Assembly (NCBI GenBank): GCA_947479085.1
Contig: CANJYB010000010.1
Coordinates: 62,001-126,000, forward strand
Direction: 5' to 3'
Origin: Bacteroidota bacterium
GTDB taxonomy: Bacteria; Bacteroidota; Bacteroidia; 2-12-FULL-35-15
DNA length: 64,000 bases
The first letter of the stretch is position 1. Each line of letters starts with the position of its first letter. Positions 15,507-54,399 of the stretch are shown here, piece by piece. The notes under the pieces were generated by a model. It did no database searches, was not told where the DNA came from, and saw only the letters and a program-made list of their open reading frames with translations. Both the position numbers and the translations under genes were made by a program.

Positions 15507-15795
15507 AGTTAAGATTTGGGATAAAGGTATGTTTTTTTCTTTCAATTATTAATTAAGTAATCTAAAGAATAAACATTGATATGACTTAATAAATCTGAAT
15601 GAAAAACAATCTTAAATCTTTGACTTTATTTCGAAAGCTATTTTTTAACAACAAAAATTATTGGTTAATTTAATTCTAATAATTTTATATGCCAAGGAGG
15701 AATGAGAATTTTGTAAATTTGGAAAAGTAAACCCATAATGGGAGCGAAATCACTGACATTTTGACATAAAAAAATTATACTTTTAGTGTTTTTGT

Positions 15796-16030
15796 CAATC
15801 TATTGAGTGAAACGTCCAATCTATTGAAGGGAATGGATGACTATTGTCCGGGAGTGGATAACTATTGGTTGGGGATGGATAACTATTTGTTGGGTATGGA
15901 TAACTATTGGTTGGGGATGGATAACTATTTGTTGGGGATGCATAACTATTTATTGGGGATGGATAACTATTTGTTGGGGAAGGATAACTATTTGTTGGGG
16001 AAGGATAACTATTTGTTGGGAATGGATAAC
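15796..16030. repeat. 21-bp tandem repeat array 1
   Basis: From 15831 there are nine consecutive 21-bp units built on GGATGGATAACTATTTGTTG plus G, followed by one partial unit. Two diverged copies with CAATCTATTGA spaced exactly 21 bp apart (15796 and 15817) precede it, so the period extends further. Units differ at a few fixed places (GAT/GAA, TTG/TGG). Translated on the plus strand it gives a heptapeptide repeat (MDNYLLG), but this is probably incidental. Confidence 0.9.
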
Positions 16031-16184
16031 ATATGGAACTGCTTATCTAAATGAGTGGAAATGATAAACTATAGAGTTGTGAAGTAATATGTGGATAAGG
16101 ATTCTTATCGGACAGCAATTAAATGGATTTGATACAGATTTTTTTTAATAATACATGCAACCAAATTACTATTATTTGCGTCTA

Positions 16185-18881: not shown

Positions 18882-20168
18882 ATGAAAATCCGTTTACTTC
18901 TTTTAATTCTCCCTTTTAGTTTAGTTTCACATTTTTCCTTTTCGCAGGCTCCTACTATTGAATGGCAACATTCTTATGGAGGTTCGGCTGATGATAAAGC
19001 ACTATCAGCTATTCAAACAATGGATGGTAGCTATATGATTGCAGGAAGTACCGAATCCGTGGACGGGGATGTGCTGGATAATAAAGTAAAATTAAATTGC
19101 TGGGTAATAAAGCTTTTTTCGAACGGAAATGCTGATTGGAAAAAATGTTTGGGAGGAGAAACGGCACACCAGGGAAATGAAATTATTCAAACCAAAGACT
19201 GGTGTTATGTGGTAGCGGGGAGTACCATGCTGAAAGATGGCAATAATACCGGGGTTCATGGCAATGATGATTACTGGATTACAAAATTCAATTCTACATT
19301 TATACCCCAATGGACCCGAACTTATGGTGGCAAAGCAGATGATGTTGCAAAGTCTATAAGAGGAACCAGAGATGGAGGATTTATAGTGGCGGGCTGGGGC
19401 GGAATTCCCGGAACAAATATAACACGCAACCTTGGAGGAAATGATTTCTGGATTATGAAATTAAATAAACAAGGAAGTATAAAATGGCAAAATAGCCTTG
19501 GGGGAAGTGGAATGGATAATGCAGCCGCAGCTATTCAGGCAGGCGATGATGGGTATTTAGCGGTTGGTTATTCGAATTCAAACAACATGAATGTAACGGG
19601 AAACCATGGTGCTTCGGATGGATGGATTGTAAAAACAGACAGTGGTGGAGTAATAGAATGGCAAAAGAGCATTGGTGGAAATGGATTGGATTTTATTTAT
19701 TCAGCAGAGCTGACCAAAGACAAAGGATTTATTTTTGCAGGAGCCACTGAATCGAATGATGGGGATGTGAAAGGTAATCATGGAAAATCGGATGCATGGA
19801 TAATTAAAACAGATAGCCTGGGAAATATGGAGTGGCAAAAATGTATAGGCGGCAGTAATGATGATGTTGCCTATTCGGTTCAGGTAACTAATGATGGCGG
19901 GTATATTATAGCAGGGAAAACAGATTCGAATGATGGAGATGTGAAAGGCAACTATGGGGGAACCGATGCATGGATAATAAAACTGGATGAAAAAGGAACA
20001 ATGATATGGCAGAAATGCCTGGGAGGAACAAAAAATGACCAGGCAAAAACTATAAGACAAACCAACGATGGAGGATATATTATTTCTGCATTTTCAAACT
20101 CTGCAGATGGTGATGTGACTTCGAATAAAGGAAACTACGATTACTGGATAATTAAACTAAAACCTTAA
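18882..20168 (+). CDS. Secreted seven-repeat (propeller-like) protein
   Basis: 428 residues with a signal peptide (MKIRLLLLILPFSLVSHFSFSQ). The rest is seven repeats of about 56-60 residues, each with the pattern GG...DDxAxSIxxTxDGGYIxAGxTxSxDGDV, GNxGxxDxWIIKLDxxGxxxWQK. Seven blades would make a complete beta-propeller. Similar uncharacterised proteins in Bacteroidota usually end with a T9SS tail, but here the protein stops right after the last repeat (DYWIIKLKP), so its export route past the outer membrane is unclear. It is followed after 3 bp by the TPR gene, so the two form an operon. Confidence 0.8.
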   Translation: MKIRLLLLILPFSLVSHFSFSQAPTIEWQHSYGGSADDKALSAIQTMDGSYMIAGSTESVDGDVLDNKVKLNCWVIKLFSNGNADWKKCLGGETAHQGNEIIQTKDWCYVVAGSTMLKDGNNTGVHGNDDYWITKFNSTFIPQWTRTYGGKADDVAKSIRGTRDGGFIVAGWGGIPGTNITRNLGGNDFWIMKLNKQGSIKWQNSLGGSGMDNAAAAIQAGDDGYLAVGYSNSNNMNVTGNHGASDGWIVKTDSGGVIEWQKSIGGNGLDFIYSAELTKDKGFIFAGATESNDGDVKGNHGKSDAWIIKTDSLGNMEWQKCIGGSNDDVAYSVQVTNDGGYIIAGKTDSNDGDVKGNYGGTDAWIIKLDEKGTMIWQKCLGGTKNDQAKTIRQTNDGGYIISAFSNSADGDVTSNKGNYDYWIIKLKP

Positions 20169-41675: not shown

Positions 41676-41725
41676 CACCTCACCCCCTGCCCCTCTCCAA
41701 AGGAGAGGGGAGCCAGGGTGTGAAG
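41676..41725. repeat. Interspersed palindromic element (CCCCTCTCC family)
   Basis: Core CCCCTCTCC, loop aaa, GGAGAGGGG (41690-41710), with outer partial arms (CACCCCCTG / CAGGGTG). A homologous copy with the same CCTCAC...CCCCTCTCC order lies inside hutU at 53672-53692. Confidence 0.8.
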
Positions 41726-49262: not shown

Positions 49263-49291
49263 CTCCGAAGGGGCTCTAAGCCCCTTTGGAG
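49263..49291. repeat. Palindromic element after fabD
   Basis: CTCCGAAGGGGCT, loop cta, AGCCCCTTTGGAG with one mismatch. Related by its CTCCGAAGGGG core to the palindrome inserted in hutU at 53119-53135 and may also act as fabD terminator, as a T run follows 12 bases later. Confidence 0.75.
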
Positions 49292-49455
49292 GTAATTATT
49301 TTTTCCGTTGCTCTGTTAGTTCAATGGTTCATTAGTTATTGGTGGCTTCCTTCTAAAACCTGTTTTTTGCTCTTTTTTGTCCCTTTTTTATCAATTTCAG
49401 CGAAATACGACTATTGAAAATCAGCCAATTATACCAAAAAGTAGCGTTTTCGCTT

Positions 49456-49705
49456 CATTAAGGTTAACTATTCAATCATTAAGGTTAACGATTCAACCGC
49501 TAAGGTTAATGATTCAATCATTAAGGTTAATCATCCAACCATTAAGGTTAACGATTCAATCGCTAACCTTAATGTTGTGAACACTAAGGCTAATAATACA
49601 ACCACTAACCTTAATGATTGCTTTACTAAGGTTAACAATCATATTGTAAACCTTAACGGTTACACTACTAACCTTAATGATACAATCATTAAGGTTAGCA
49701 ATCCG
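49456..49705. repeat. 21-bp tandem repeat array 3
   Basis: Eleven full 21-bp units plus a partial one. The unit core is CATTAAGGTTAACGATTCAA plus a final base. The centre AAGGTTAA is replaced by AACCTTAA (its reverse complement) in units 6, 8, 10 and 11, so orientation of the core alternates while the period stays constant. Confidence 0.9.
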
Positions 49706-52274: not shown

Positions 52275-52354
52275 GTCTCGCAAAGACGCTAAGAACGCAA
52301 AGAATATTATTCTATTTCTCTTTGCGATCCTTGCGTCTTTGCGTCTTTGCGTGA
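52275..52354. repeat. Large palindromic element (CGCAAAGACG family)
   Basis: Left arm GTCTCGCAAAGACGCTAAG, continuing AACGCAAAGAA; right arm TTCTCTTTGCGATCCTTGCG, then TCTTTGCGTCTTTGCGTGAC. The arms pair over most of about 30 bp. This element, with CGCAAAGACG core repeats, is a well-known intergenic repeat type in Bacteroidota. It sits between the lipoprotein and hutU promoter regions. Confidence 0.8.
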
Positions 52355-52365
52355 CATTTAAGTAT

Positions 52366-54399
52366 TTAAAATAAATCATTCAATAAATTATCATCAACTA
52401 TATTAGGTAAAGTTACTTTCAGGTTCGGGCTTCGTTCCATTTCCCGTTTAATGGCAAACTGAGCTTCTTCATTCCTTGCCCAGCTTCTTCGGGCTATTCC
52501 GTTATTCACATCCCAGAACAACATTGACTTCAATCTTCTGTCGCTATCATCTGTACCATCCAATACCATACCAAAACCTCCGTTGATTACTTCCCCCCAT
52601 CCTACTCCACCTCCGTTATGCAACGAAATCCATGTGGCACCGCGGAAACCATCTCCAACAAAGTTCTGAACTGCCATATCAGCAGTAAAACTTGAGCCGT
52701 CATATATATTACTTGTTTCGCGATAAGGAGAATCCGTTCCGGAAACATCATGATGGTCTCTGCCTAACACAACAGGAGCTGAAATTTTTCCTTCTTTAAT
52801 GGCTTTATTAAATGCTTCTGCTATTTTTATTCTTCCTTCTGCATCTGCATATAATATTCTTGCCTGCGAACCCACCACCATTTTGTTCTTTTGTGCGGCC
52901 TTTATCCAGCGGATGTTATCATCCAGTTGTTGTGTAATTTCGGGAGGAGAAGTTTTAACTATTTCTTCCAATACTTCGGTTGCTATTTTATCGGTAGTTG
53001 CCAAATCTTTTTCGTCACAGGAAGAACATACCCAACGGAAAGGACCAAAGCCATAATCAAAACACATAGGTCCCAGGATATCCTGAACATAGGAAGGGTA
53101 TTTAAATACCCCTCCTGACCTCCCCGAAGGGGAGGAACCTAAGAACACATCTGCTCCTGCTCTTCCTGCTTCTAATAAAAAAGCATTTCCATAATCAAAG
53201 AAATACATACCGTTTGCTGTCATTTTATTTACAGCAGCGGCATGACGAACCAATGTTTTTTGAACTTCCTTTTTAAATTGTTCAGGCTGTTCGGCCATCA
53301 TTTTCTTTGCCTCTTCAAAAGAAATGCCCACCGGGTAATATCCTCCCGCCCATGGATTGTGTAAGGAAGTCTGGTCGGAACCTAATTCCACTTTTACATT
53401 TTTTTCTGCAAACTTTTCCCATAAATCAACAATGTTTCCCTGGTAAGCCAATGCCACCGATTCTTTTCCTGTTCTTGCCTTTTCTATTCGTTCAATTAAT
53501 TTATCCAAATCATCATGCACTTCATCCACCCACCCTTGAGAATGCCTAGTTTGTATGGCCTTTGGATTAACTTCTGCAATCACCCCGATGGCACCTGCAA
53601 TAACTGAAGCTTTTCCCTGCGCTCCGCTCATGCCCCCCAAACCTGCAGTAACAAATACTTTACCGCCTGTTCCCCTCTCCTCAGGAGAGGGGTTAGGAGT
53701 GAGGCGTCTTATTGCATTCAATATGGTTATGGTGGTTCCATGCACAATTCCCTGCGGCCCTATGTACATAAAAGAACCTGCTGTCATTTGTCCGTACTGA
53801 GTTACCCCAAGAGCATTAAACTTTTCCCAATCGTCCGGCTTGCTGTAATTAGGTATCATCATGCCATTGGTAACTACCACACGGGGAGCATCTTTATGTG
53901 AAGGGAATAGCCCCATCGGGTGACCTGAATACATTGCCAATGTTTGTTCATCCGTCATTTCGGCAAGGTATTTCATGGTTAATAAATACTGTGCCCAATT
54001 TTGAAACACTGCACCATTGCCTCCGTAAGTAATTAATTCATGAGGATGTTGCGCCACTGCATAATCCAGGTTATTTTGAAGCATCAGCATAATAGCAGCT
54101 GCCTGCTTGGATTGATGAGGATAATCATTAATGTGCCTTGAATGAATTTTATAATCCGGCCGGAAACGATACATATATATACGTCCGTAATCTTTAAGTT
54201 CCTGGGCAAATTCCTTTGCCAGAACCGCATGATGTTTCTTATCAAAATAACGAAGCGCATTCCGAATGGCTAATTTCTTTTCTTCCTTATTTAAAATATC
54301 CTTTCGCTTAGGGGCATGATTAAGATTCGTATCATAAGCCTTGGCAGCAGGCAATTCATTAGGTATTCCCTGTAAAATCTGTTGTTTAAAATCGTTCAT
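52366..54399 (-). CDS. hutU: Urocanate hydratase with two in-frame palindromic insertions
   Basis: 677 residues of the urocanase family; GGNGAVFQNWAQYLLTMKYL, FVTAGLGGMSGAQGKASV and the catalytic-region GRDHHDVSGTDSPYRETSNI are clear. It hydrates urocanate in histidine degradation. Two insertions are recognisable: RRLTPNPSPEERGTGG at 231-246 (from CCCCTCTCCT...AGGAGAGGGG at 53672-53692) where other urocanases have a short loop, and LGSSPSGRSGG before VFKYPSYVQD (from CCTCCCC/GGGGAGG at 53119-53135). Both keep the frame. No other hut gene is nearby. Confidence 0.92.
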   Translation of the reverse strand: MNDFKQQILQGIPNELPAAKAYDTNLNHAPKRKDILNKEEKKLAIRNALRYFDKKHHAVLAKEFAQELKDYGRIYMYRFRPDYKIHSRHINDYPHQSKQAAAIMLMLQNNLDYAVAQHPHELITYGGNGAVFQNWAQYLLTMKYLAEMTDEQTLAMYSGHPMGLFPSHKDAPRVVVTNGMMIPNYSKPDDWEKFNALGVTQYGQMTAGSFMYIGPQGIVHGTTITILNAIRRLTPNPSPEERGTGGKVFVTAGLGGMSGAQGKASVIAGAIGVIAEVNPKAIQTRHSQGWVDEVHDDLDKLIERIEKARTGKESVALAYQGNIVDLWEKFAEKNVKVELGSDQTSLHNPWAGGYYPVGISFEEAKKMMAEQPEQFKKEVQKTLVRHAAAVNKMTANGMYFFDYGNAFLLEAGRAGADVFLGSSPSGRSGGVFKYPSYVQDILGPMCFDYGFGPFRWVCSSCDEKDLATTDKIATEVLEEIVKTSPPEITQQLDDNIRWIKAAQKNKMVVGSQARILYADAEGRIKIAEAFNKAIKEGKISAPVVLGRDHHDVSGTDSPYRETSNIYDGSSFTADMAVQNFVGDGFRGATWISLHNGGGVGWGEVINGGFGMVLDGTDDSDRRLKSMLFWDVNNGIARRSWARNEEAQFAIKREMERSPNLKVTLPNIVDDNLLNDLF
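53119..53135. repeat. Palindrome inserted in hutU (copy 2)
   Basis: CCTCCCC, loop gaa, GGGGAGG. Encodes part of the LGSSPSGRSGG insertion on the minus strand. Related to the 49263 element. Confidence 0.7.
53672..53692. repeat. Palindrome inserted in hutU (copy 1)
   Basis: CCCCTCTCCT, loop c, AGGAGAGGGG. Homologous to the 41690-41710 element: both carry the CCTCAC ... CCCCTCTCC order (read on the minus strand here). Confidence 0.8.

Follow-up and report, generated by a model that had tools for sequence, protein, structure and literature searches.

In-frame palindromic inserts in a Bacteroidia urocanase gene and their probable kinship with the ends of embedded DUF559 units

How does a conserved enzyme come to carry two additional loops encoded by palindromic DNA, and where did this DNA come from? 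The question is raised by hutU, the urocanate hydratase gene found in a 64,000-nucleotide stretch of a Bacteroidota genome (the window). The first-pass annotation of the window had proposed that two small palindromic elements invaded hutU in frame, that they belong to families also present between genes at 41676 and 49263, and that the enzyme tolerated them as conserved genes tolerate the palindromic elements of Rickettsia. We compared hutU with other urocanases and its inserts with repeats of the source genome and its relatives. The features concerned are listed in Table 1.

Table 1. Coordinates of hutU, its inserts and the related palindromes in the window
Feature	Position	Strand	Basis
hutU, urocanate hydratase with two palindrome-encoded loops	52366..54399	-	Single open frame, 677 aa
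Insert 1, in loop 1 (about residues 231-246, RRLTPNPSPEERGTGG); tail plus palindrome, resembling the left end of a DUF559 unit	53662..53708	-	38/41 to the left end of the LeuRS unit of congener G014
Stem-loop of insert 1, CCCCTCTCC TGA GGAGAGGGG in minus-strand reading	53672..53692		Palindrome search, shuffles
Insert 2, in loop 2 (about residues 421-431, GSSPSGRSGGV), resembling the right end of a DUF559 unit	53106..53139	-	26/28 to the right end of the MetH unit of congener G034; 28/29 to the copy in GpmI
Stem-loop of insert 2, CCTCCCC TTC GGGGAGG	53119..53135		Palindrome search, shuffles
Intergenic copy of the insert 1 family; stem 41690-41710, CCTCACCCC tail	41676..41712		Same family as insert 1, tail included
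Intergenic palindrome cited in the first-pass annotation; not of the insert 2 family	49263..49291		9 consecutive bases in common with insert 2

Two palindrome-encoded loops in hutU

The hutU product scores above the TIGR01228 cut-off in a profile comparison and contains all three Pfam urocanase domains; a hutU match is present in 54 of 59 genomes, the source genome included. Its nearest relatives (L020-L023, 91-92% identical) have short loops at both insert sites, such as RKIKGDKGQPV and VMKADGK, and alignment with these insert-free urocanases confirmed that both loops are longer in hutU. At the 317 near-invariant columns of the family hutU departs only once, compared with zero to two departures in 11 other urocanases tested, and its pN/pS against L020, L021 and L023 is 0.09-0.11. 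Judging from these sequences, purifying selection still acts on hutU, and the insert-bearing enzyme is probably active in catalysis. An AlphaFold2 model of mediocre quality (mean pLDDT 67.5), which served only for placing the inserts, predicts both to lie in coil, insert 1 between helix 214-232 and strand 247-251 and insert 2 at 421-430. Foldseek retrieves urocanases with this model (best 6uek, TM 0.60, rmsd 20). If the usual Rossmann layout applies, as we assume, insert 1 is placed at the end of the first strand farther from the NAD loop. Directly downstream of the gene there is an inverted repeat of CGCAAAGACGC type (window 52279-52343), whose arms are 88% complementary.

Both loops are encoded by GC-rich stems, as the first-pass annotation had stated, and stems of such length are rarely reached by shuffling the loop sequences (0 of 200 shuffles for insert 1 and 2 of 200 for insert 2). 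The palindrome of insert 1 is CCCCTCTCCTGAGGAGAGGGG, with a tail, GCCTCACTCCTAA, outside the stem. In full, the insert reads GCCTCACTCCTAA-CCCCTCTCC-TGA-GGAGAGGGG-AACAGG and encodes LTPNPSPEERGTG. Exact copies of its stem, with a spacer of 0-8, number 33 in the 4.28 Mb genome; 32 are intergenic or no more than 18 codons from the end of a frame, and the other is the one in hutU. When up to three mismatches are allowed at spacer 3, the family has 61 copies in the genome and the reversed pattern has none. The intergenic copy at 41676 belongs to this family, so that this part of the claim of shared families holds. Among close pairs of exact copies in the source genome, eight of nine distinct pairs point outwards, as the ends of the DUF559 units described below do, and paired ends without DUF559 also occur there between genes.

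Insert 2 is TTCCTCCCCTTCGGGGAGGTCAGGAGGGGT, translated as SSPSGRSGGV, with the palindrome CCTCCCCTTCGGGGAGG. Its stem (spacer 0-8) occurs three times in the source genome. Of the own-genome loci compared, the one most like it (28/29 identical) lies inside GpmI, a 512-aa ORF matching phosphoglycerate mutase (L018:496-2034, on contig 37 of the source genome, G000), where it shares both the frame and the peptide SSPSGRSGGV with hutU. The best solved GpmI homologue, 1ejj, is shorter by 7 residues at this site. Kinship of insert 2 with the palindrome at 49263, the other part of the claim of shared families, was rejected, since the common run is so short (Table 1). A protein of congener G005 (L217), read as a SpoIIE-type phosphatase, contains two such peptides, one of which, SSPSGRSAG, is close to that of insert 2.

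Because the inserts match repeat families, the loops of the nearest relatives are short, the near-invariant residues are kept and pN/pS is about 0.1, the comparisons support the proposal that dispersed palindromic elements entered hutU in frame twice and were tolerated. The likeness to the Rickettsia elements is a fair one with regard to the mode of operation, namely an in-frame palindrome kept in a conserved gene.

The same two loops in other urocanases

Urocanases were aligned using the 139 of 146 distinct sequences that have at least 600 aa. Every insertion of four or more residues between core columns falls after residues 235-245 or 419-430. GC-rich palindromes with an arm of at least 7, searched in 136 hutU genes, are concentrated at the same places: 26 of 35 lie in the two loops, which make up 16,644 of 278,241 nt (6%), and at arm 8 the loops hold 19 of 22. 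These counts come from a set that includes 20 hutU regions mostly fetched for a long match or a long frame and 11 genomes mostly fetched for a split or partial match; without the selected loci L088-L119, a hand count gives eight palindromes in the loops and eight elsewhere. Laxer limits blur the enrichment. With a GC limit of 0.4, 31 of 95 palindromes of arm 7 are in the loops and 64 outside, and at arm 8 11 of 31 are outside.

The palindromes themselves vary by lineage. Perfect ones are AGACCTGACAGGTTTTCGAAACCTGTCAGGTCT in G027, GTCGGGATTTTAAATCCCGAC in G190, TCCTCCCCCAATGGGGGAGGA in G219 and CCCCTCTCC-type palindromes in the hutU loops of G160, G290 and the source genome. Paired palindromic elements occupy hutU loops in G120, G182, G044, G088 and G241, and G373 has, by eye, repeat-like inserts in both loops. 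The G027 palindrome has ten copies in its own genome, one of them in hutU, is present in 6 of 25 genomes and gives no match with the reversed pattern. Unrelated palindrome families have landed in the same hutU loops in different lineages, which argues that the loops are permissive sites and not a single cleavage target. On a FastTree tree from which the loops were left out, the label for a palindrome (carried by 17 of 136 rows, among them L054 and L061, whose loop palindromes are chance-like) requires at least 12 changes, either gains or losses, of which 10 are forced by supported branches. A strict label of 12 rows requires eight changes.

The loops also hold inserts that are not palindromic, such as ARPDDLVGR in L038, L041 and L044 and KPLKGGHTG in L094. 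Likewise, loop 1 of the hutU of G129 (L096) contains a non-palindromic insert with AACTCCCAACTCCTGACTCC-type sequence. Two further records showed irregular urocanase matches: that of Myroides odoratus (L163) has one stop codon in the matched frame, and that of Chryseobacterium carnipullorum (L193) spans 2.68 kb, against the usual 2.0 kb or so.

DUF559 units embedded in other enzymes

Palindromes of this kind also enter other proteins. Of 60 palindrome places in the fetched loci, 24 lie in frames with at least 35 codons on both sides, some of which are chance frames. Read by eye, the hosts are IleRS, LeuRS, MetH, an LpxK-like kinase, acetyl-CoA synthetase, SpoIIE-type phosphatases, a short-chain dehydrogenase and a reverse transcriptase. 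In LeuRS of G014 (overlapping loci L220 and L281), two palindromes enclose an entire DUF559 domain in frame. Such full units, with DUF559 between inverted palindromic ends in the host's frame, are found in other genes and genomes; hutU has ends only, and the domain was not seen in any of the 146 distinct hutU sequences. In congener G002 a protein read as IleRS (L200) carries an in-frame GACCTGACAGG palindrome with the peptide DLTGFKNLSGL.

A search with PF04480 found DUF559 in 23 of 25 chosen genomes, and in 45 of the 59 genomes formed by the source genome and its relatives. Over these 59 genomes, 32 of the 112 DUF559 matches listed are in open frames of at least 600 aa; among the Y1_Tnp matches listed there is none in such a frame, the longest having 402 aa. 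Pfam placed DUF559 in 10 chosen ORFs: inside LeuRS (two), MetH (two, at two sites), acetyl-CoA synthetase-type enzymes (two), RecJ, a SpoIIE protein and a class I synthetase read as IleRS, and once between an aldehyde dehydrogenase and a MaoC domain. These 10 proteins gave Pfam matches to host domains, DUF559 and its relative MTES_1575 only, with no splicing domain. Rfam at gathering score, run on eight loci, detected no ribozyme in the units of seven loci nor at hutU; its single group II hit, in L275, is outside the DUF559 unit and on the opposite strand. Compared with the solved LeuRS 1h3n, the L281 unit is positioned between neighbouring residues, at about 229-236. Units measure approximately 144-190 aa between host anchors, where the unit-free LeuRS L235 has 8 residues.

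Palindromes with an arm of at least 7 stand on both sides of the domain in 21 of 27 scored DUF559 loci (30 examined), as opposed to none of 280 random blocks from hutU loci and one of eight scored Y1_Tnp loci (10 examined). In this set the domain was taken at fixed positions, which is approximate for the contig-end loci L275 and L294, and two-sided flanking falls with stricter stems to 11/27 at arm 8 and 7/27 at arm 9. A second set, centred on the domain motif and consisting of 30 loci out of the 112 matches in the 59 genomes (10 of them also in the first set), gave 22 two-sided loci of 27 scored, and still 20/27 at arm 8; L316, L322 and L324 had no flanking palindromes.

The embedded domains are related to each other. 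In a quick tree of 44 domains, 23 of the 24 that we called embedded by reading (10 of them Pfam-checked) form one clade (SH-aLRT 97), and the DUF559 embedded in HsdR stands apart, among free-standing copies. Fourteen residues are invariant across all 24, among them the core's D, C, ExDG and H. For eight pairs, the pN/pS of embedded DUF559 is 0.13-0.27, against 0.06-0.28 for the part of the host behind it, with many synonymous rates saturated.

One MetH site hosts two DUF559 subtypes with differing palindromes, and the Acs, MetH linker and SpoIIE sites hold a solo palindrome in one genome and a full DUF559 unit in another. No target duplication or clean empty site was defined. The LeuRS unit had no relative in viral contigs, and its weak matches comprise 38 plasmid records, all below 60% identity, and 3 phage records. 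The genomes with embedded units that could be tied to named records are MAGs. In the source genome there is one DUF559 match (L295), free-standing and flanked by a different palindrome, CCCCTCTTGAGAGGGG. In a literature search that covered few subscription journals, no paper turned up that describes DUF559 within host enzymes or bordered by palindromes. On contig 1 of G055 (about 788584-791602), a DUF559 match is located some 0.8 kb from hutU, which may be chance.

The two inserts of hutU resemble opposite ends of such units, insert 1 the left one of the LeuRS unit in G014 and insert 2 the right one of the MetH unit in G034 (Table 1), while the best own-genome copy compared with insert 1 is 31/35 identical. 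Their scores are 67 and 46, respectively, and shuffled queries score 26 at most. In loop 2 of the G120 hutU, two ends stand about 11 nt apart: first a left one, which matches that of the G120 Acs unit at 30/33, then a right one, which matches that of the G190 RecJ unit at 37/38. From its sequence, this loop reads as a unit without the endonuclease. At the score used, no DUF559-end match was obtained for GACCTGACAGG in G027, for GTCGGGATTT in site 2 of G190, nor for L028 site 1, L024, L057 and L098 site 2. Thus, the loops also take other sequence.

Origin of the inserts and known systems

Taking these results together, we think that the hutU loops are probably in-frame copies of short C-rich palindromes, the non-autonomous ends of a mobile element linked to DUF559 and apparently unspliced. 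The full unit consists of a DUF559 endonuclease (Vsr-like, PD-(D/E)xK) between two inverted tail-plus-palindrome ends, and a specialised DUF559 lineage would sit stop-free in loops of housekeeping enzymes and be translated with the host. Solo ends, and paired ends devoid of the endonuclease, would scatter intergenically and sometimes enter enzyme loops, as in hutU and GpmI. We hypothesize that DUF559 drives the mobility of palindromes and units by cutting the target or the hairpin, after which repair would copy the element, and that selection would retain only in-frame, stop-free insertions in permissive loops. As hutU would have two such permissive loops, it would be hit repeatedly, also by unrelated palindrome families, receiving solo or paired ends rather than losing DUF559 afterwards.

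An alternative that we consider unlikely is that these are ordinary REP/BIME-type palindromes moved by a Y1 (RAYT) transposase, DUF559 being captured cargo and the hutU inserts RPE-like, with no role of DUF559. Y1_Tnp genes are indeed common (at least five matches in the source genome, and present in at least 48 of 59 genomes), the eight outward-pointing pairs of nine are also BIME-like, and the accessible text of PMC3733652 already describes REPs and REP dimers that lie in frame in coding genes. DUF559 could therefore be cargo and not the motor. However, the association of palindromes with DUF559 is two-sided, inspection revealed no GTAG or CGTC head in the hutU inserts, and in 20 Y1_Tnp regions the family-1 palindrome appears in just two, L265 and L267, about 1.2 and 3.5 kb from the gene. 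The RAYT-like genes at L267:3747-4443 and L268:1227-1893 have two-sided palindromes of their own (AAGCGTAGCG.. and AAGCGTAGCGTCCCGCTACGCTT; CGTCCTCG.. and CGTCCTCGTTTGCAACGAGGACG). As the palindromes near RAYT-type genes are of families other than those of hutU, RAYT is a weaker candidate for the motor.

Two further explanations appear less probable still. It is improbable that the hutU loops formerly held complete DUF559 units, with the same mobile palindromes, and later lost the endonuclease: the paired ends in loop 2 of G120 and G182 and the paired palindromes in loops of G044, G088 and G241 do look like units without the domain, but no urocanase in our set retains DUF559, each loop of the source hutU holds one end only, and paired ends lacking DUF559 are found between genes as well. 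Most improbable of all, the loops would be naturally fast-evolving and GC-rich, the palindromes having arisen in place or having been selected as RNA or DNA hairpins. The length of both loops differs among urocanases, several of their inserts are non-palindromic, and under the laxer GC limit most arm-7 palindromes (64/95) fall outside the loops, all of which would agree with it. Dispersed repeats, though, agree with the inserts at up to 38/41 and 28/29 positions, in the case of insert 1 with a tail outside the stem, the insert 1 family numbers 61 copies against none for the reversed pattern, and the nearest relatives have short loops. At the level of sequence, an origin in place is already contradicted for the two inserts of hutU by the repeat matches, and the non-palindromic loops still fit it.

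On balance, we favour a broader reading as well, according to which a Bacteroidia DUF559 lineage would be an unspliced in-frame passenger in loops of essential enzymes (LeuRS, IleRS, methionine synthase, acetyl-CoA synthetase, RecJ and SpoIIE-type phosphatases), bounded by translated inverted palindromes, with non-autonomous ends seeding loops as in hutU. It would be a splicing-free counterpart of the inteins, whose cut-down copies generate new loops. Inteins have a homing endonuclease that is encoded within conserved host enzymes and in their frame, different species carrying it at one and the same site. DUF559 units share the in-frame endonuclease, the conserved hosts and the common site across species; they differ from inteins in that no splicing domain was detected in the 10 proteins, in their size of about 144-190 aa and in that the palindromic ends remain as peptide. 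The hutU case may be a variant of the known in-frame palindromes, and the DUF559 unit a class of its own.

Among those known palindromes, the Rickettsia elements of Ogata et al. are described in the available text of PMC3733652 and PMC10969869 as short palindromic repeats of several families, in frame in conserved genes, with a length of about 150 bp (PMC10969869). According to the same part of PMC3733652, protein-coding palindromes occur in Rickettsia and some REP-rich bacteria, and part of the families have no known motor. As so described, the Rickettsia elements resemble the hutU inserts in being in-frame palindromes of conserved genes, apparently tolerated by the protein, but they belong to another phylum and exceed the approximately 34-47 bp of the hutU inserts; the comparison is by description, not by sequence. 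The hutU inserts, unlike the Rickettsia elements as described there, are linked to an embedded endonuclease domain and recur at fixed host loops, and the accessible portions of both papers do not mention ends of endonuclease units for Rickettsia. Intragenic REPs and REP dimers are reported there for several bacteria (PMC3733652, PMC10969869). GTAG/CGTC REPs, as presented in the available text of PMC3733652, share with the hutU families the stem-loop with a short tail, the single or dimeric arrangement and intragenic occurrence. In contrast to them, the hutU families lack the GTAG/CGTC head and flank DUF559 units instead of RAYT genes; in none of the 20 regions were they found close on both sides of a Y1_Tnp gene.

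The ShiLan domain of phage methylases is, in the accessible part of PMC11855218, an in-frame-readable homing insertion with an endonuclease and neither intein nor intron, its HNH endonuclease being out of frame. By that description, DUF559 units are distinguished by an endonuclease in the host's own frame, by palindromic boundaries and by their presence in bacterial housekeeping genes. VsrA of Caulobacter is a DUF559 / Vsr-like (PF04480) protein on its own in the part of PMC12907096 available; the embedded domains belong to the same PF04480 but form a clade apart from the free-standing ones of the same genomes.

Our results suggest a family of selfish elements living inside working proteins. 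In Bacteroidia, in-frame palindromes recur, have entered identical enzyme loops in independent events and are linked with a clade of endonucleases housed in essential enzymes. Two questions thereby become testable: how such palindromes spread, and whether conserved proteins gain new loops and domains from selfish DNA. Moreover, annotated DUF559 'fusions' with synthetases are likely insertions, and the insert sites point to natural permissive loops useful in protein engineering.

The window contains other repeats too. Arrays with 21-nt tandem repeats lie at 15782-16051 and 49431-49704, the second built on a TTAAGGTTAA motif, and repeats spaced by 174 nt (and 522) at 19062-20156 apparently encode a repeat protein.
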